DNA of 54,735 nucleotides from a virus: positions 1-54,735 of the IMG/VR virus record IMGVR_UViG_3300031687_000016; one strand, given 5' to 3'. Under the pieces are notes generated by a model. The model had not been told where the DNA came from. It saw only the letters and a list, made by a program, of their open reading frames with translations, and did no database searches. The stretch's first letter is position 1. Every line of letters starts with the position of its first letter. Of the stretch, positions 968-31,821 are shown one piece after another. The position numbers and the translations under genes were made by a program.

Positions 968-1062
968 AAGTAAGAAAAGTAATGTATTATAGTGGAAAGC
1001 CTTTATACAATGATTGGATAATATATATATATAGTGAGTATTCTAAATTATATAAATTATGA
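964..1062 (+). CDS. possible very small protein (32 aa)
   Basis: ATG 964 overlaps the previous TGA by four bases (ATGA), and its own stop TGA 1060-1062 overlaps the next ATG in the same way. The product is short, aromatic and basic (MKVRKVMYYSGKPLYNDWII). The double ATGA linkage is the main reason to accept it, since the length alone would not support a gene. No family is recognised. Confidence 0.35.
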   Translation: MKVRKVMYYSGKPLYNDWIIYIYSEYSKLYKL

Positions 1063-1190
1063 AAGAAGTATACCAGTTGATGATAGATGAAAAGATGAAA
1101 GAAAACCCCAACAAATCATACATACAATGGCTTCAAAAACTTAATGAAGCTATATTGAAACAAATTATAATAGATAATTACAGAAAATAA
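1059..1190 (+). CDS. hypothetical small helical protein (43 aa)
   Basis: ATG 1059 overlaps the preceding stop by four bases; the frame ends at TAA 1188-1190. The product is helical and charged (MKEVYQLMIDEKMKENPN, then YIQWLQKLNEAILK). It is the last gene of the first early run; a stem-loop with a T-run follows within 30 bases. Function unknown. Confidence 0.5.
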   Translation: MKEVYQLMIDEKMKENPNKSYIQWLQKLNEAILKQIIIDNYRK

Positions 1191-1252: not shown

Positions 1253-1266
1253 AACTTAAAATAGCT

Positions 1267-1306
1267 GGGAATAATCCCTAATCTTAATGGGTACATAAGA
1301 GTATCC
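1267..1306 (+). other. two small hairpins in a structured intergenic region
   Basis: GGGA-ATAA-TCCC (1267-1278) and GGGTAC-ataaga-GTATCC (1289-1306, one G-U pair) lie between the terminator at 1217-1252 and the longer hairpin at 1345-1393. The 225-base gap 1191-1415 holds no convincing gene on either strand but four successive stem-loops. It may be a leader or a small RNA. The individual hairpins are short and could be chance. Confidence 0.3.
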
Positions 1307-1344
1307 TTTAATATTAAATGTTTAGTTATTTTAATAGCATAATG

Positions 1345-1397
1345 GGAGAGCATAAAGGCACAAGCCAACAATCAGTTAATACTATTGCTCTCCTTTT
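1345..1397 (+). ncRNA. structured, terminator-like RNA (copy 1)
   Basis: GGAGAGCA (1345-1352) pairs perfectly with TGCTCTCC (1386-1393) around a 33-base loop, followed by TTTT. The loop contains AAAGGCA and an inner hairpin GGC-acaa-GCC. The element after the major capsid gene (30266-30325, minus strand) has the same 33-base loop length, the same AAAGGCA, an inner hairpin at the same place and a similar 3' half, while the inner pairs of its outer stem differ in a compensatory way. This copy ends 22 bases before the ATG at 1416, so it could act as a terminator, attenuator or leader of the replication cluster. Its function is an inference. Confidence 0.5.
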
Positions 1398-1415
1398 GTG
1401 TTAACCCTAAATCAA

Positions 1416-1655
1416 ATGAAAAAAGAAACAAGACAAATAATACAAGATCTTAAATATTTAAACGAAAATAATAGTTTAATTAAACAAAATACCATAGATT
1501 TGGATAACTATTTTAAGTATTCTGGAATGCAAGAATATCAAGATAACATTATATCTATGACTCCAAGTTATAGAAAAAAAGATGTAAATAAAGTAGCTAA
1601 AGTTTATAATGACATGAGTAGATACAAATTAAAAGATTACAGAAAGTATGAGTAA
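1416..1655 (+). CDS. hypothetical protein (79 aa)
   Basis: I chose ATG 1416; a GTG 18 bases upstream lies on the 3' flank of the hairpin and is unlikely to start translation. The product is helical and basic: MKKETRQIIQDLKYLNENN, then a tyrosine-rich C-terminus (NDMSRYKLKDYRKYE). The leader aaatcaaATG is the same as at the gene starting at 8624. It overlaps the next gene by eight bases and opens the replication cluster. No domain is recognised. Confidence 0.6.
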   Translation: MKKETRQIIQDLKYLNENNSLIKQNTIDLDNYFKYSGMQEYQDNIISMTPSYRKKDVNKVAKVYNDMSRYKLKDYRKYE

Positions 1656-1887
1656 AGAGATCCAAGTTCCAAATTATTATATAGGAGATACATATAGAGA
1701 AGGGTATTATCAAGCAAGATATGTAGTAGAAGACTTTAATTGCACATGGAATATTGGTAACGTTGTAACCTACTGTTTGCGTAGTTCAGAGAAGCATGAA
1801 TCTCCAATAGAATGTTTGCAAAAATCAATTAACCATCTCAAGTTTGAGATAGAAAGGTTAGAAAAATTAAATAAAAAGAAAAAATAA
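1648..1887 (+). CDS. DUF3310-like protein (79 aa)
   Basis: The sequence has the DUF3310 layout: an early YY with following helix (VPNYYIGDTYREGYYQA), the central NIGNVVTYCLRSSEK block matching the family's GNAxKYxxRxxxK core at about residues 36-50, and a C-terminal helix of the LxKSINHLKFEIERLEK type. DUF3310 proteins are small, common in phage replication regions and often called nucleotide kinase-like or SaV-like; their activity is not settled. The usual Arg-Ala-Gly after the core tyrosine is changed here to CLRSSEK. It overlaps the previous gene by 8 bases and its stop shares one base with the next start. Confidence 0.6.
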   Translation: MSKEIQVPNYYIGDTYREGYYQARYVVEDFNCTWNIGNVVTYCLRSSEKHESPIECLQKSINHLKFEIERLEKLNKKKK

Positions 1888-2186
1888 TGAAACGAGAAAT
1901 ATTTGACAACTACGCATCTGCAATAGCAGAACAATTCCATCTTACTCTTGATGAAATGTTTACAAAAACCAAGAGGAGAGATAGTGTTGAAGCAAGACAA
2001 ATGCTATATTTTTTAGCCAAAGAACGCCCAATCAGACTATCATACATAAGATTATTTATGGAAGAGAACGGACATCCAGTAACACATTCTACTATTATAC
2101 ATGGATACAAGAAAGCAAAAGAATACATAAACAAAGATGAAGACTGGAAAAACATAGTAAATGAGTTACAAAAAAAGAATGTATAG
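1887..2186 (+). CDS. free-standing DnaA domain IV-like DNA-binding protein
   Basis: Residues about 12-80 match the C-terminal domain IV of DnaA: an N-terminal helix, a RQMLYFLAKE helix equivalent to DnaA's RxIAMYLxRE, LSYIRLFMEENGH (a helix like LSLPEIGRxFG) and the signature helix THSTIIHGYKKAKEYI, parallel to DnaA's DHTTVLHAxRKIE. In DnaA this helix-turn-helix reads the DnaA box. The AAA+ and oligomerisation domains are missing. The gene sits at the head of the replication cluster, so it may mark or melt the phage origin or compete with host DnaA for boxes. Family match by motif reading is good; role is inference. Confidence 0.65.
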   Translation: MKREIFDNYASAIAEQFHLTLDEMFTKTKRRDSVEARQMLYFLAKERPIRLSYIRLFMEENGHPVTHSTIIHGYKKAKEYINKDEDWKNIVNELQKKNV

Positions 2187-2592
2187 TATAGAGGACATAT
2201 ATAGCCAGGCTTTACAAGACGATACATTATACATGGAAAGGAATAATAATGTAAGCATGATCAATATTGGTATTAAAATACAAAAGTTTCCTAGCAAGAC
2301 AGAGATATTAAATTGCTCAAAAAACGGAGATTATTTTCAAGAATTAACAACAGATGAATACAATACCTTTTTTACTTATGGATGGGTTATTGGTTGTTTA
2401 AAGATGGCTGTAAATAATTGTGTCAGAAAATTAGACATGATACAGAAAAATATGCAAGAGGAGGTAAATACGAGGAAGAACGATAAGTATATTAAGAATT
2501 TAAAAACAAAACGGGAGTTTGTTATGAATAAGTATTCTTACCATACAAAAAAACTAATCAAATTAAATAACAAAAATGGAAAATTATTTTAA
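2179..2592 (+). CDS. hypothetical protein (137 aa)
   Basis: ATG 2179 overlaps the previous stop by eight bases; an in-frame ATG at 2161 would overlap it by 26 and is less likely. The N-terminal half is mixed alpha/beta, with a tryptophan- and glycine-containing turn (YGWVIGCLKMAVNNCVRKLD); the C-terminal half is one long lysine-rich helix region with coiled-coil character (MIQKNMQEEVNTRKNDKYIK). The 3' end overlaps the recombinase gene by 17 bases, linking its expression to recombination functions. I do not recognise the family. Confidence 0.6.
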   Translation: MYSIEDIYSQALQDDTLYMERNNNVSMINIGIKIQKFPSKTEILNCSKNGDYFQELTTDEYNTFFTYGWVIGCLKMAVNNCVRKLDMIQKNMQEEVNTRKNDKYIKNLKTKREFVMNKYSYHTKKLIKLNNKNGKLF

Positions 2593-3157
2593 AAAGTTGT
2601 CAGCCATCAACGTAAAAGGAATGGCTGAAAAAAAAGGAAGGTTTAACTATTTGTCATGGGCAAACGCATGGGCTTTGATAAAGGAGAATTATCCTGAAGC
2701 AAACAGAAAGGTGTATGAAAGTGAGCATACGGGATTAAACTATTTTACAGATGGAAAAACAGCCTCTGTCAAGGTAGGAGTTACAGTTAATGGTATTGAA
2801 CACATAGACTACCTTCCAGTAATGGATTACAGGAACAGTTCTATACCTATTGATAAAGTTACCTCAATGGATGTAAATACCACAATACAGAGATCAACTA
2901 CTAAAGCTATTGCTATGCATGGACTGGGAATATCTATATTCAAAGGAGAGGATCTTGTTGACATAGCCACACCACCAGCACCACCTAAACCAATATCAGT
3001 AGTTCTTGACTTAGGAGATGTTGATATGAAAAAAACTCTTGACTGGATCGCTTCAAACAAATCAATGGGACTACCTAAGATAGTTAAAACATTAGAGCAG
3101 AAATACAAGATAACTGCAAAAGTAAAAAAGGAGATTGCTAATATTATAAAAGATTAA
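2576..3157 (+). CDS. DUF1071 single-strand annealing protein (Sak3-like)
   Basis: The first 130 residues carry the DUF1071 marks: YLSWANAWA (25-33), an aromatic-rich YFTDG segment, LPVMD (80-84), MDVNTTIQRSTTKAIAMHGLG (98-118, with its Asn-Thr-x-x-x-Arg core) and IFKGEDL (121-127). DUF1071 proteins have been linked to Rad52-like phage annealases of the Sak/Sak3 kind. They bind single-stranded DNA and pair complementary strands. The last ~60 residues form a proline linker (TPPAPPKP) and a helical lysine-rich tail. The next gene encodes a RecE-like exonuclease four bases away, the classic exonuclease plus annealase pair. Confident on family, less on the exact subgroup. Confidence 0.75.
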   Translation: MENYFKKLSAINVKGMAEKKGRFNYLSWANAWALIKENYPEANRKVYESEHTGLNYFTDGKTASVKVGVTVNGIEHIDYLPVMDYRNSSIPIDKVTSMDVNTTIQRSTTKAIAMHGLGISIFKGEDLVDIATPPAPPKPISVVLDLGDVDMKKTLDWIASNKSMGLPKIVKTLEQKYKITAKVKKEIANIIKD

Positions 3158-27830: not shown

Positions 27831-27838
27831 CAAATATA
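27831..27838 (-). promoter_or_regulatory. putative -7 promoter element (TATATTTG, minus strand)
   Basis: TATATTTG on the minus strand matches TAnnTTTG and lies 23 bases before the ATG at 27807, right after the T-run of the terminator at 27841-27874. A terminator followed at once by a promoter would uncouple tail-gene expression from capsid-gene expression. Confidence 0.4.
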
Positions 27839-27840
27839 AC

Positions 27841-27874
27841 AAAAAAAAAGAGGTTACTTTTTTTAGTAACCTCT
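27841..27874 (-). terminator. strong intrinsic terminator after the head-protein genes
   Basis: On the minus strand a perfect 10-bp stem, AGAGGTTACT/AGTAACCTCT (plus-strand arms 27849-27858 and 27865-27874), has a 6-base A loop and runs into nine T. It lies 25 bases after the stop of the 280-residue head protein gene. It is the cleanest terminator in the window. Confidence 0.85.
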
Positions 27875-27899
27875 CTTAAATATATATTAAATACTTTTT

Positions 27900-30265: not shown

Positions 30266-30325
30266 AAAAAAAAAGGAGAGGGTTACTAAGAGAACGTTTG
30301 CATGTATGCCTTTGGCCCTCTCCTT
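30266..30325 (-). terminator. intrinsic terminator/structured RNA after the capsid gene (copy 2)
   Basis: On the minus strand AAGGAGAGGG pairs with CCCTCTCCTT (plus-strand arms 30273-30282 and 30316-30325) around a 33-base loop, then a run of nine T (30274-30266). The loop begins CCAAAGGCA and folds GCA-taca-TGC. Loop length, the AAAGGCA sequence, the inner hairpin and the TCnnTTAnTA end all match the plus-strand element at 1345-1397. It starts about 24 bases after the capsid stop, where a terminator would end the abundant capsid transcript. Confidence 0.8.
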
Positions 30326-30348: not shown

Positions 30349-31821
30349 TTACTGTTGGAATATAAAGAAGTTATTCGCTCCTAAAGTACATACAGCTCTT
30401 TCAGACAAGAAATTTACAGTCATACTATCCGTAGTATTTGTTCTTGCACCACCAGCAGAACCAGTAATCCAAGTCTTGTAACGTCTGTCTTCAGATTCTG
30501 AAGCTCTGTATCTAACATGAAGGAATGGTCTTTTAGCATTCTTCCCTAAGATTTGGTCATAAACAGTAGTTGAACCAGCAGGAACCATAAGTCCATTTAC
30601 TCGTCCACCTTCTATACCACCTCTCATTGTAGGATCGTTTAGGTATTTCCAGTCAGACTTATAGAAATCGTAACCTCTTCTAAATCCTGTGAAACCTAAA
30701 TTAAGAGCCATCTCTTTATCATTATCAAATAAACCGTATGAAGTACCACCCGCTCCGTAAGAGTTTTGTGCAGCTAACATATCATCTATATCAAATGAGA
30801 AATTTCTATTAACGAATATTACATTCTCTTCAATAGAACCTTGTCTGTCTAATCTCTGAATAACTGAGTCAAAACCTGCTAAAGCAACTGGGTTACCTCC
30901 ACTCCAGATGTTTCCTCTGTTTTGAACCGCAAAGAAAATACCATCAGAACCAGAACCATTAGCTACACCAAGTCCAGAACCTACCGCTTGACCTTGTAAG
31001 AAATCTGCTGCACCAGAAGCCGCATCTGCTGGAACTGCTTCCACCATAGCTGTTTCTAGGTAATCTTCAAAACGTAGTCTTGTTTCATGCTCTGATTTTA
31101 GGTACCATAAGTATCCATTAGCTCCATTTTCAGTAGTAACTTCTACCCATCCAATTTGAGCCATATCAGAACCATTAACAGTATACTGGTCTTTAATAAT
31201 AATAGGCTTATTGTCAAATATTAGATCTTGAGATTCTAAAGACCCAGCCATCCCTGGTGTTCCTTTTCTAAATTCAGATCCATAAATGAACATTGTTGCA
31301 GTGTTATTTGCTCCTGCCCACGCTAATCCAGTTGCTTCATACAAAGCTACTGTAAATACACCTGCTGCTGCTGCTGTAGGTGCTACTGTTACAATTCCTT
31401 TATTAGATAATGTTGTTCCATTAGTATCTAAAGAAATCATAATTGTTTGACCTTGTCTAATTGCTCCAAACCCATTTGCTGGTGCAGTTGATGTTGGTGA
31501 AACACTAGTTAATTGTGGAGCTGGAATTGTAAAAGTAACAGTAGTAGCTCCTGCAATCGCTGGAGTTGTCATTCCTGTATACTTAGTATGTAATCTTCCT
31601 TGCTCTGCCCACTTAATCAAATCTGAGTTAGTTGGCATTTCAGCGCCTACCATTCTTAAGAATGATGCTACTGATCTATTTCCATAACGCTCAAATTCCT
31701 TCTCATAAGTATCTGGAAGATACTGATTAAGAAAGTCAAAGTTTGTTATGTAGTTTGTTGGTTGGGCAACTTGCTGCGCACTTGGCTGCAAGTTAAACCC
31801 AGGGACTGCATTTACTGGCAT
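30349..31821 (-). CDS. major capsid protein (490 aa)
   Basis: The 490-residue length, position after scaffold and portal genes and before a strong terminator, and composition all fit a HK97-fold major capsid protein. The N-terminal arm (NYITNFDFLNQYLPDTYEKE) is followed by a helical FERYGNRSVASFLRMVG block. Residues ~85-185 form a beta-rich, Ala/Thr-rich insertion (GQTIMISLDTNGTTLSNKGI) like an insertion domain on the capsid surface. The later part has RRGYDFYKSDWKYLNDPTMR and the end VCTLGANNFFIFQQ. No prohead protease gene is recognised nearby. The fold itself is inferred, not seen. Confidence 0.75.
   Translation of the reverse strand: MPVNAVPGFNLQPSAQQVAQPTNYITNFDFLNQYLPDTYEKEFERYGNRSVASFLRMVGAEMPTNSDLIKWAEQGRLHTKYTGMTTPAIAGATTVTFTIPAPQLTSVSPTSTAPANGFGAIRQGQTIMISLDTNGTTLSNKGIVTVAPTAAAAGVFTVALYEATGLAWAGANNTATMFIYGSEFRKGTPGMAGSLESQDLIFDNKPIIIKDQYTVNGSDMAQIGWVEVTTENGANGYLWYLKSEHETRLRFEDYLETAMVEAVPADAASGAADFLQGQAVGSGLGVANGSGSDGIFFAVQNRGNIWSGGNPVALAGFDSVIQRLDRQGSIEENVIFVNRNFSFDIDDMLAAQNSYGAGGTSYGLFDNDKEMALNLGFTGFRRGYDFYKSDWKYLNDPTMRGGIEGGRVNGLMVPAGSTTVYDQILGKNAKRPFLHVRYRASESEDRRYKTWITGSAGGARTNTTDSMTVNFLSERAVCTLGANNFFIFQQ

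Follow-up and report, generated by a model that had tools for sequence, protein, structure and literature searches.

In phage T7, an intrinsic terminator, T-phi, lies behind the capsid gene (gene 10), and RNase III sites lie between early genes; the put RNAs of phage HK022 are two adjacent stem-loops in the early phage region, just behind the early promoters. Here, RNA structures are described in IMG/VR virus record IMGVR_UViG_3300031687_000016, all 54,735 nt (54.7 kb) of which were analyzed and are called the window below. On comparative sequence evidence, the window has RNAs of three covarying families, A, B, and J, none of which has a counterpart in Rfam. We lean, if only slightly, toward reading them as two different cis-acting mRNA elements, a J-A unit at the 5′ side of an early gene (gene Y) and, in B, a capsid 3′-end terminator with a factor-binding tip.

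The window is from a marine Bacteroidota phage; its capsid protein shares 62% identity with the one in an uncultured podovirus record and 49%–38% with proteins of Maribacter, Flavobacterium (Elemovirus), and Cellulophaga (Pervagoviridae) phages, and it matches a Cellulophaga Calle_1 protein whose annotation is major capsid protein. The early genes (DnaA-HTH, Sak annealing protein, exonuclease, a primase-like gene, and helicase, by Pfam/PHROG) are on the plus strand, with gene Y as the first gene of the run to DnaA-HTH and Sak, and the structural genes are on the minus strand (Table 1). No tRNA genes were found in the window, and a Pfam/PHROG search gave no match for gene X. Between structural genes, at 27834–27884 on the minus strand, lies an ordinary terminator-like hairpin (AAGAGAGGT..ACCTCTTTTTTTTT).

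Table 1. Positions of RNA elements and neighboring genes in the window, with the basis of each assignment
Feature	Position	Strand	Basis
Gene X, 43-aa ORF	1059..1190	+	sequence; upstream of composite RNA J-A
Element J, three-way-junction RNA	1256..1334	+	R3 match, 69.5 bits
J helix P1	1256-1266/1324-1334	+	own arms pair
J helix P2, GGGAATAATCCC	1267-1278	+	sequence
J helix P3, then conserved TTAATATTAAATGTTT	1289-1306	+	sequence
Element A, 16-bp stem (1337-1352/1386-1401) and 33-nt conserved loop (1353-1385)	1337..1401	+	R1, covariation
Gene Y, 79-aa small early protein	1416..1655	+	homologues follow most J-A units; cluster Pfam/PHROG
DnaA-HTH gene	1887-2186	+	Pfam/PHROG
Sak annealing protein gene	2576-3157	+	Pfam/PHROG
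Element B, 8-bp stem, 33-nt loop, T9 run after	30275..30323	-	R2, covariation, terminator position
B core, 31 nt	30284..30314	-	inner pairs 30309-30290, 30305-30294
Major capsid protein gene	30349..31821	-	PHROG 13704 virion structural protein, E=1e-96

Relationship of the two hairpins

A preliminary description of the window had reported two GGAGAG..CTCTCC hairpins, and both are present, copy A at 1345–1393 (+) and copy B at 30323–30275 (−); the wider ends given there for copy B (30325–30273) take in flanking A/T bases. The 8-bp stem arms are GGAGAGCA/TGCTCTCC in copy A and GGAGAGGG/CCCTCTCC in copy B, and both loops measure exactly 33 bases, as described. When the 54.7-kb window is scanned for perfect stems (8 bp, at least 5 G/C, loop 3–60), three GC-rich sites are found, two of which are copies A and B, and the folding of each copy beats 200 of 200 shuffles (z = −4.8 for A and −3.6 for B). 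The placement of copy A was also given correctly: counted from the 8-bp stem, it lies 22 nt ahead of the next ATG (1416), which is 14 nt past the full 16-bp stem. Copy B starts 25 nt downstream of the capsid stop codon.

The same description took the two copies for one RNA element with a shared loop that one regulator could read in both phage phases. We consider this very improbable. The two share the GGAGAG stem start, the loop length, and AAAGGCA, and the covariance model of A-type RNAs (R1; 73.1 bits for copy A) reaches copy B in the window with 19.9 bits (E = 0.04), mostly through the stem and AAAGGCA; the majority of its weak matches elsewhere are likewise B-type loci, at 16–21 bits, not clearly over background. 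The reciprocal model of B-type RNAs (R2), however, scores copy B at 82 bits and does not have copy A among its matches at E up to 10, and an alignment of the A and B loop profiles that gives p = 0.044 falls to chance level (p = 0.37) once AAAGGC is removed. The conserved cores and inner pairs of A and B are also unlike each other, and most phages with one of the two elements are without the other. Given the reciprocal models and the profile test, a single family was rejected and A and B are handled as separate families; a very remote link between them is conceivable.

Several details of the preliminary description change with this separation. AAAGGCA and a TC..TTA.TA tail do occur in both loops, but out of register (AAAGGCA by one base, the tail by three), and the inner features said to form a small hairpin at the same place in both loops are not at the same place. 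For the GCA-TACA-TGC inner hairpin proposed in copy B, covariation gives no support versus shuffles; other inner pairs are supported. The CA/TG versus GG/CC difference, presented as a compensatory pair, compares two families, because A and B belong to separate ones; true compensation is found inside each. The broader claim, that both copies are conserved RNAs and more than two GC stems, holds: loops are kept and stems change with compensation, although the patterns used to collect A, B, and J account for part of the loop conservation.

The composite J-A RNA

Comparison of relatives shows positions 1256–1401 to be a composite RNA of ∼146 nt, J followed at once by A, between genes X and Y. In J, 13 of 21 pairs have changes on both sides, and G-U outnumber A-C cells 41:8 in the aligned relatives. 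Helix P1 differs from phage to phage yet pairs, with a mean of 11 bp for a phage's own arms versus 5.0 for swapped arms. P2 reads GGGAAUAAUCCC throughout the set used, as fixed by the scan pattern; the divergent members G027 and G034, found by the J model (R3), have other P2 hairpins, and UAAUAUUAAAUGUU is retained in G027. Three other contigs (L150 5616–5683 (−), L171 6715–6786, and L167 1934–2013) have J-like structures, though weak, on terminator-like stems, with the conserved UUAAAUGUUU and another P2 hairpin, which suggests a broader J family. J is not always accompanied by A. In L173, a J with no A next to it lies upstream of the DnaA-HTH gene region; in L174 and its kin, such a J is found where a gene run ends.

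The A loop is UAAAGGC..GCC..AGUUAAUACU in the window and UAAAGGC(N4-6)GCC..(A/C)GUUAAUACUNU in relatives, which were collected via the Sak gene and by pattern. Its stem differs in sequence among relatives yet pairs, with both-side changes at 13 of 16 pairs; 91.6% of stem cells are paired, as compared with 74% in shuffles and 48%–58% when the arms are slid. There are 55 G-U cells and 1 A-C cell, which points to the sense-strand RNA as the selected form. A DNA-level role (cruciform, origin) is disfavored for A by these counts and for J, A, and B by their constant orientation to genes. A adjoins DUF3846 and DUF932 genes in other phages. The 5′ arms of the A stem are often GGAGG-like, and in one contig (L034, ∼2107–2160) the 3′ arm is TTCACCTCCTTT, which we take to resemble the anti-Shine-Dalgarno tail of 16S rRNA; such arms may be nothing more than a sign that 5′ arms in these phages are purine-rich.

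That A and B are both ordinary intrinsic terminators whose loops are incidental appears improbable. TTTT does follow the 8-bp stem of copy A, but the longest T-run directly after the A stem is at most 4 in 23 of 23 distinct sequences, and stems are replaced while loops are kept. Because a T-run of 5 or more is never present, A is not an intrinsic terminator, and the plain-terminator reading was ruled out for it; the corresponding evidence for B is given below.

The spacing within the unit is narrow. In each of the 18 distinct J-A units, the J core ends 9–13 nt before the A stem, a distance taken up by the P1 3′ arm, so that P1 abuts the A stem in all 18 phage sequences. In all of them, an ATG follows 11–23 nt downstream of the A stem end (14 nt in the window). 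In many relatives P1 starts at or in the gene X stop codon, or the stop adjoins its 5′ arm, which leaves no promoter room between X and J there; the X-to-J spacer of the window (∼65 nt) is longer than in most relatives. Within the window, a weak hairpin followed by T8 is seen at 1209–1258, between gene X and J.

Such an arrangement could be a putative RNase III-like processing site between early genes, yielding separately stable X and Y messages. The intercistronic position, the 16-bp stem, the many relatives in which J starts at the X stop codon, and the constant J-A abutment fit this idea, but we think it unlikely, as it is the loop and junction that are conserved and not the stem that RNase III would read. 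We regard as quite unlikely that J, A, or both form a ligand-binding riboswitch or self-cleaving ribozyme of an undescribed class: conserved junction nucleotides amid variable helices, upstream of a start codon, would suit either, but Rfam, with the known ribozyme and riboswitch families included, gives no match, no alternative switch-type pairing was identified, and the downstream genes are phage genes without known function.

With the reading of J-A as a cis-acting mRNA element, its fixed short distance from the gene Y ATG implies that it probably controls Y translation or message stability. J-A would be a post-transcriptional element for control or stability, 5′ of gene Y, and would be placed at the upstream edge of the ribosome start-site footprint; the conserved junction and A loop would probably be read by a protein or small ligand. 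According to PMC9976891, flavobacterial/Bacteroidota ribosomes do not rely on Shine-Dalgarno pairing, and a structured leader could therefore matter.

Element B behind the capsid gene

Nearly all capsid relatives in the virus collection (∼80) have a hairpin at the 3′ site of the capsid gene, mostly an ordinary short-loop terminator with a T-rich tail; B therefore sits at a terminator site. Four contigs (L069, L075, L080, and L025) have instead a long loop of near-identical sequence behind the capsid gene. Most of the 23 matches of a first pattern scan look like chance, without stem and T-run context. Of the five contigs that proved relevant, four have copies identical to that of the window and the fifth is L025; pattern scans added many more copies of B.

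The apical part of B is shown by comparison to be a conserved core, predicted to fold over 31 nt, with a consensus of roughly GAAAG(G/U)CA(U/C)(A/G)CAUGNAAACG..CU..(U/G)AGUA, much of whose sequence conservation is a product of the scan pattern. Two inner pairs covary: 30309-30290 (core 6-25) is G-C in the window and U-A in others, and 30305-30294 (core 10-21) is A-U in the window and G-C in others. Both are standard in 20 of 20 distinct cores, with two Watson-Crick types each. Positions 6, 21, and 25 were free in the second scan pattern and position 10 was A/G; the covariation is therefore not made by the pattern. An internal loop of the GAA/AGUA kind is present in most relatives (CAA/AGUA in the window); the 5′ GAA opposite the 3′ AGUA would resemble a loop-E (bulged-G) motif, and in L205 and L209 helix pairs occupy this position. 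The B stem has changes on both sides at most pairs, with a count of double-change pairs that is modest relative to shuffles (45 and 57 of 500), and its G-U versus A-C cells (15:9) are weaker than those of A or J.

As a terminator, B has the GC stem and T-run of the intrinsic type (8 bp, T9) at the expected position, but its 33-nt loop with the conserved core departs from the short loop (∼3–8 nt) of such hairpins. A T-run of at least 5 is present in 14 of 18 relatives and lost in the other 4, which keep the core. In L080 (6440–6575), a complete ordinary hairpin with a T-rich tail precedes B in tandem behind the capsid gene, so B seems to be kept for more than termination; L212, L216, and L230 have the same spacing as L080 and similar upstream sequence. 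Persistence of the core without a T-run and next to a complete ordinary hairpin speaks against incidental loops in B.

Between L256 and the window, DNA identity at the end of the capsid gene is 95.7%, versus 77% for the B cores, with both inner pairs changed with compensation, as if the tip had been exchanged as a block. In L224/L227, B follows an HK97-type capsid gene (PF05065) and precedes a head-tail connector (PF05135). The B tip also lies behind a small 141–142-aa gene and before a DUF5675 gene in L207, L210, L218, and L221, and before a replication initiator in L225.

In the reading that we favor slightly, the terminator role of B follows from its position and T-run, and the factor-binding tip from its conservation across unrelated phages and in copies without a T-run. 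B would end or trim most transcripts behind the capsid gene, and its tip would bind a trans-acting factor, by which the 3′ end is shielded or read-through to the structural gene that follows is adjusted. Because the tip is common to unrelated phages, the factor is most likely of the host; its sharing by unrelated capsid genes suggests a common reader, plausibly a host RNA-binding protein.

Distribution and comparison with known systems

An Rfam search of the whole window gave nothing at the gathering threshold, and permissive Rfam searches of 1191–1420, of L064, and of copy B gave sub-threshold matches only. No description of the J, A, or B motifs was found in the literature, with the 2010-survey motifs that have no Rfam number (GUCCY-hairpin, Ocean-VI; PMC2864571) outside the comparison. 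In the virus collection, 25 stretches match the A pattern, and every one has a pairing stem; among 84,980 prokaryote genomes, the one match (L172, GTDB, a Verrucomicrobiales MAG) has no stem and was taken as chance. J and A were not found in the six cultured relatives searched, and no convincing match came from the collections of cultured phages and plasmids; for B, cultured phages were searched with BLAST alone, a weak method for a query of 70 nt. Short, weak BLAST matches to four other phages and a Microviridae record were set aside. Each element has at most one strong copy per record searched. B is absent from most capsid relatives and J-A from many Sak-bearing relatives, which means that this phage type can do without either.

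As far as our searches show, little is known of RNA-level control in Bacteroidota phages, and J, A, and B, at fixed places by a start codon and behind a capsid gene, are concrete, testable candidate regulatory sites. More tentatively, and with considerable doubt, J, A, and B might belong to a common set of three or more undescribed cis-acting RNA domains in marine Bacteroidota phages. These domains would pass from one phage to another, unrelated one and have the same host factor as their reader, with early-gene translation and capsid 3′ ends set by RNA tips on replaceable stems.

Among RNAs in Rfam, copy B has a sub-threshold match to Termite-leu RNA (RF01730; 25.4 bits versus a curated threshold of 51) in which the generic stem alone aligns; relative to Termite-leu, the B loop is inserted sequence and there is no second hairpin, and the match was rejected on this alignment. 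J-A is like HK022 put in having two neighboring stem-loops in the early region, but J adjoins the X stop codon in many relatives with no room for a promoter, and in the window the spacer is as given above. With the T7 RNase III sites, J-A shares the location between small early genes and a long paired stem, and differs in that conservation is in the loop and junction rather than in the stem. Like T7 T-phi, B is directly 3′ of the major capsid gene, with a GC stem and T-run and the next structural gene close; unlike T-phi, it has a conserved, predicted folded 31-nt tip in its 33-nt loop, and this tip persists even in copies that have lost the T-run.
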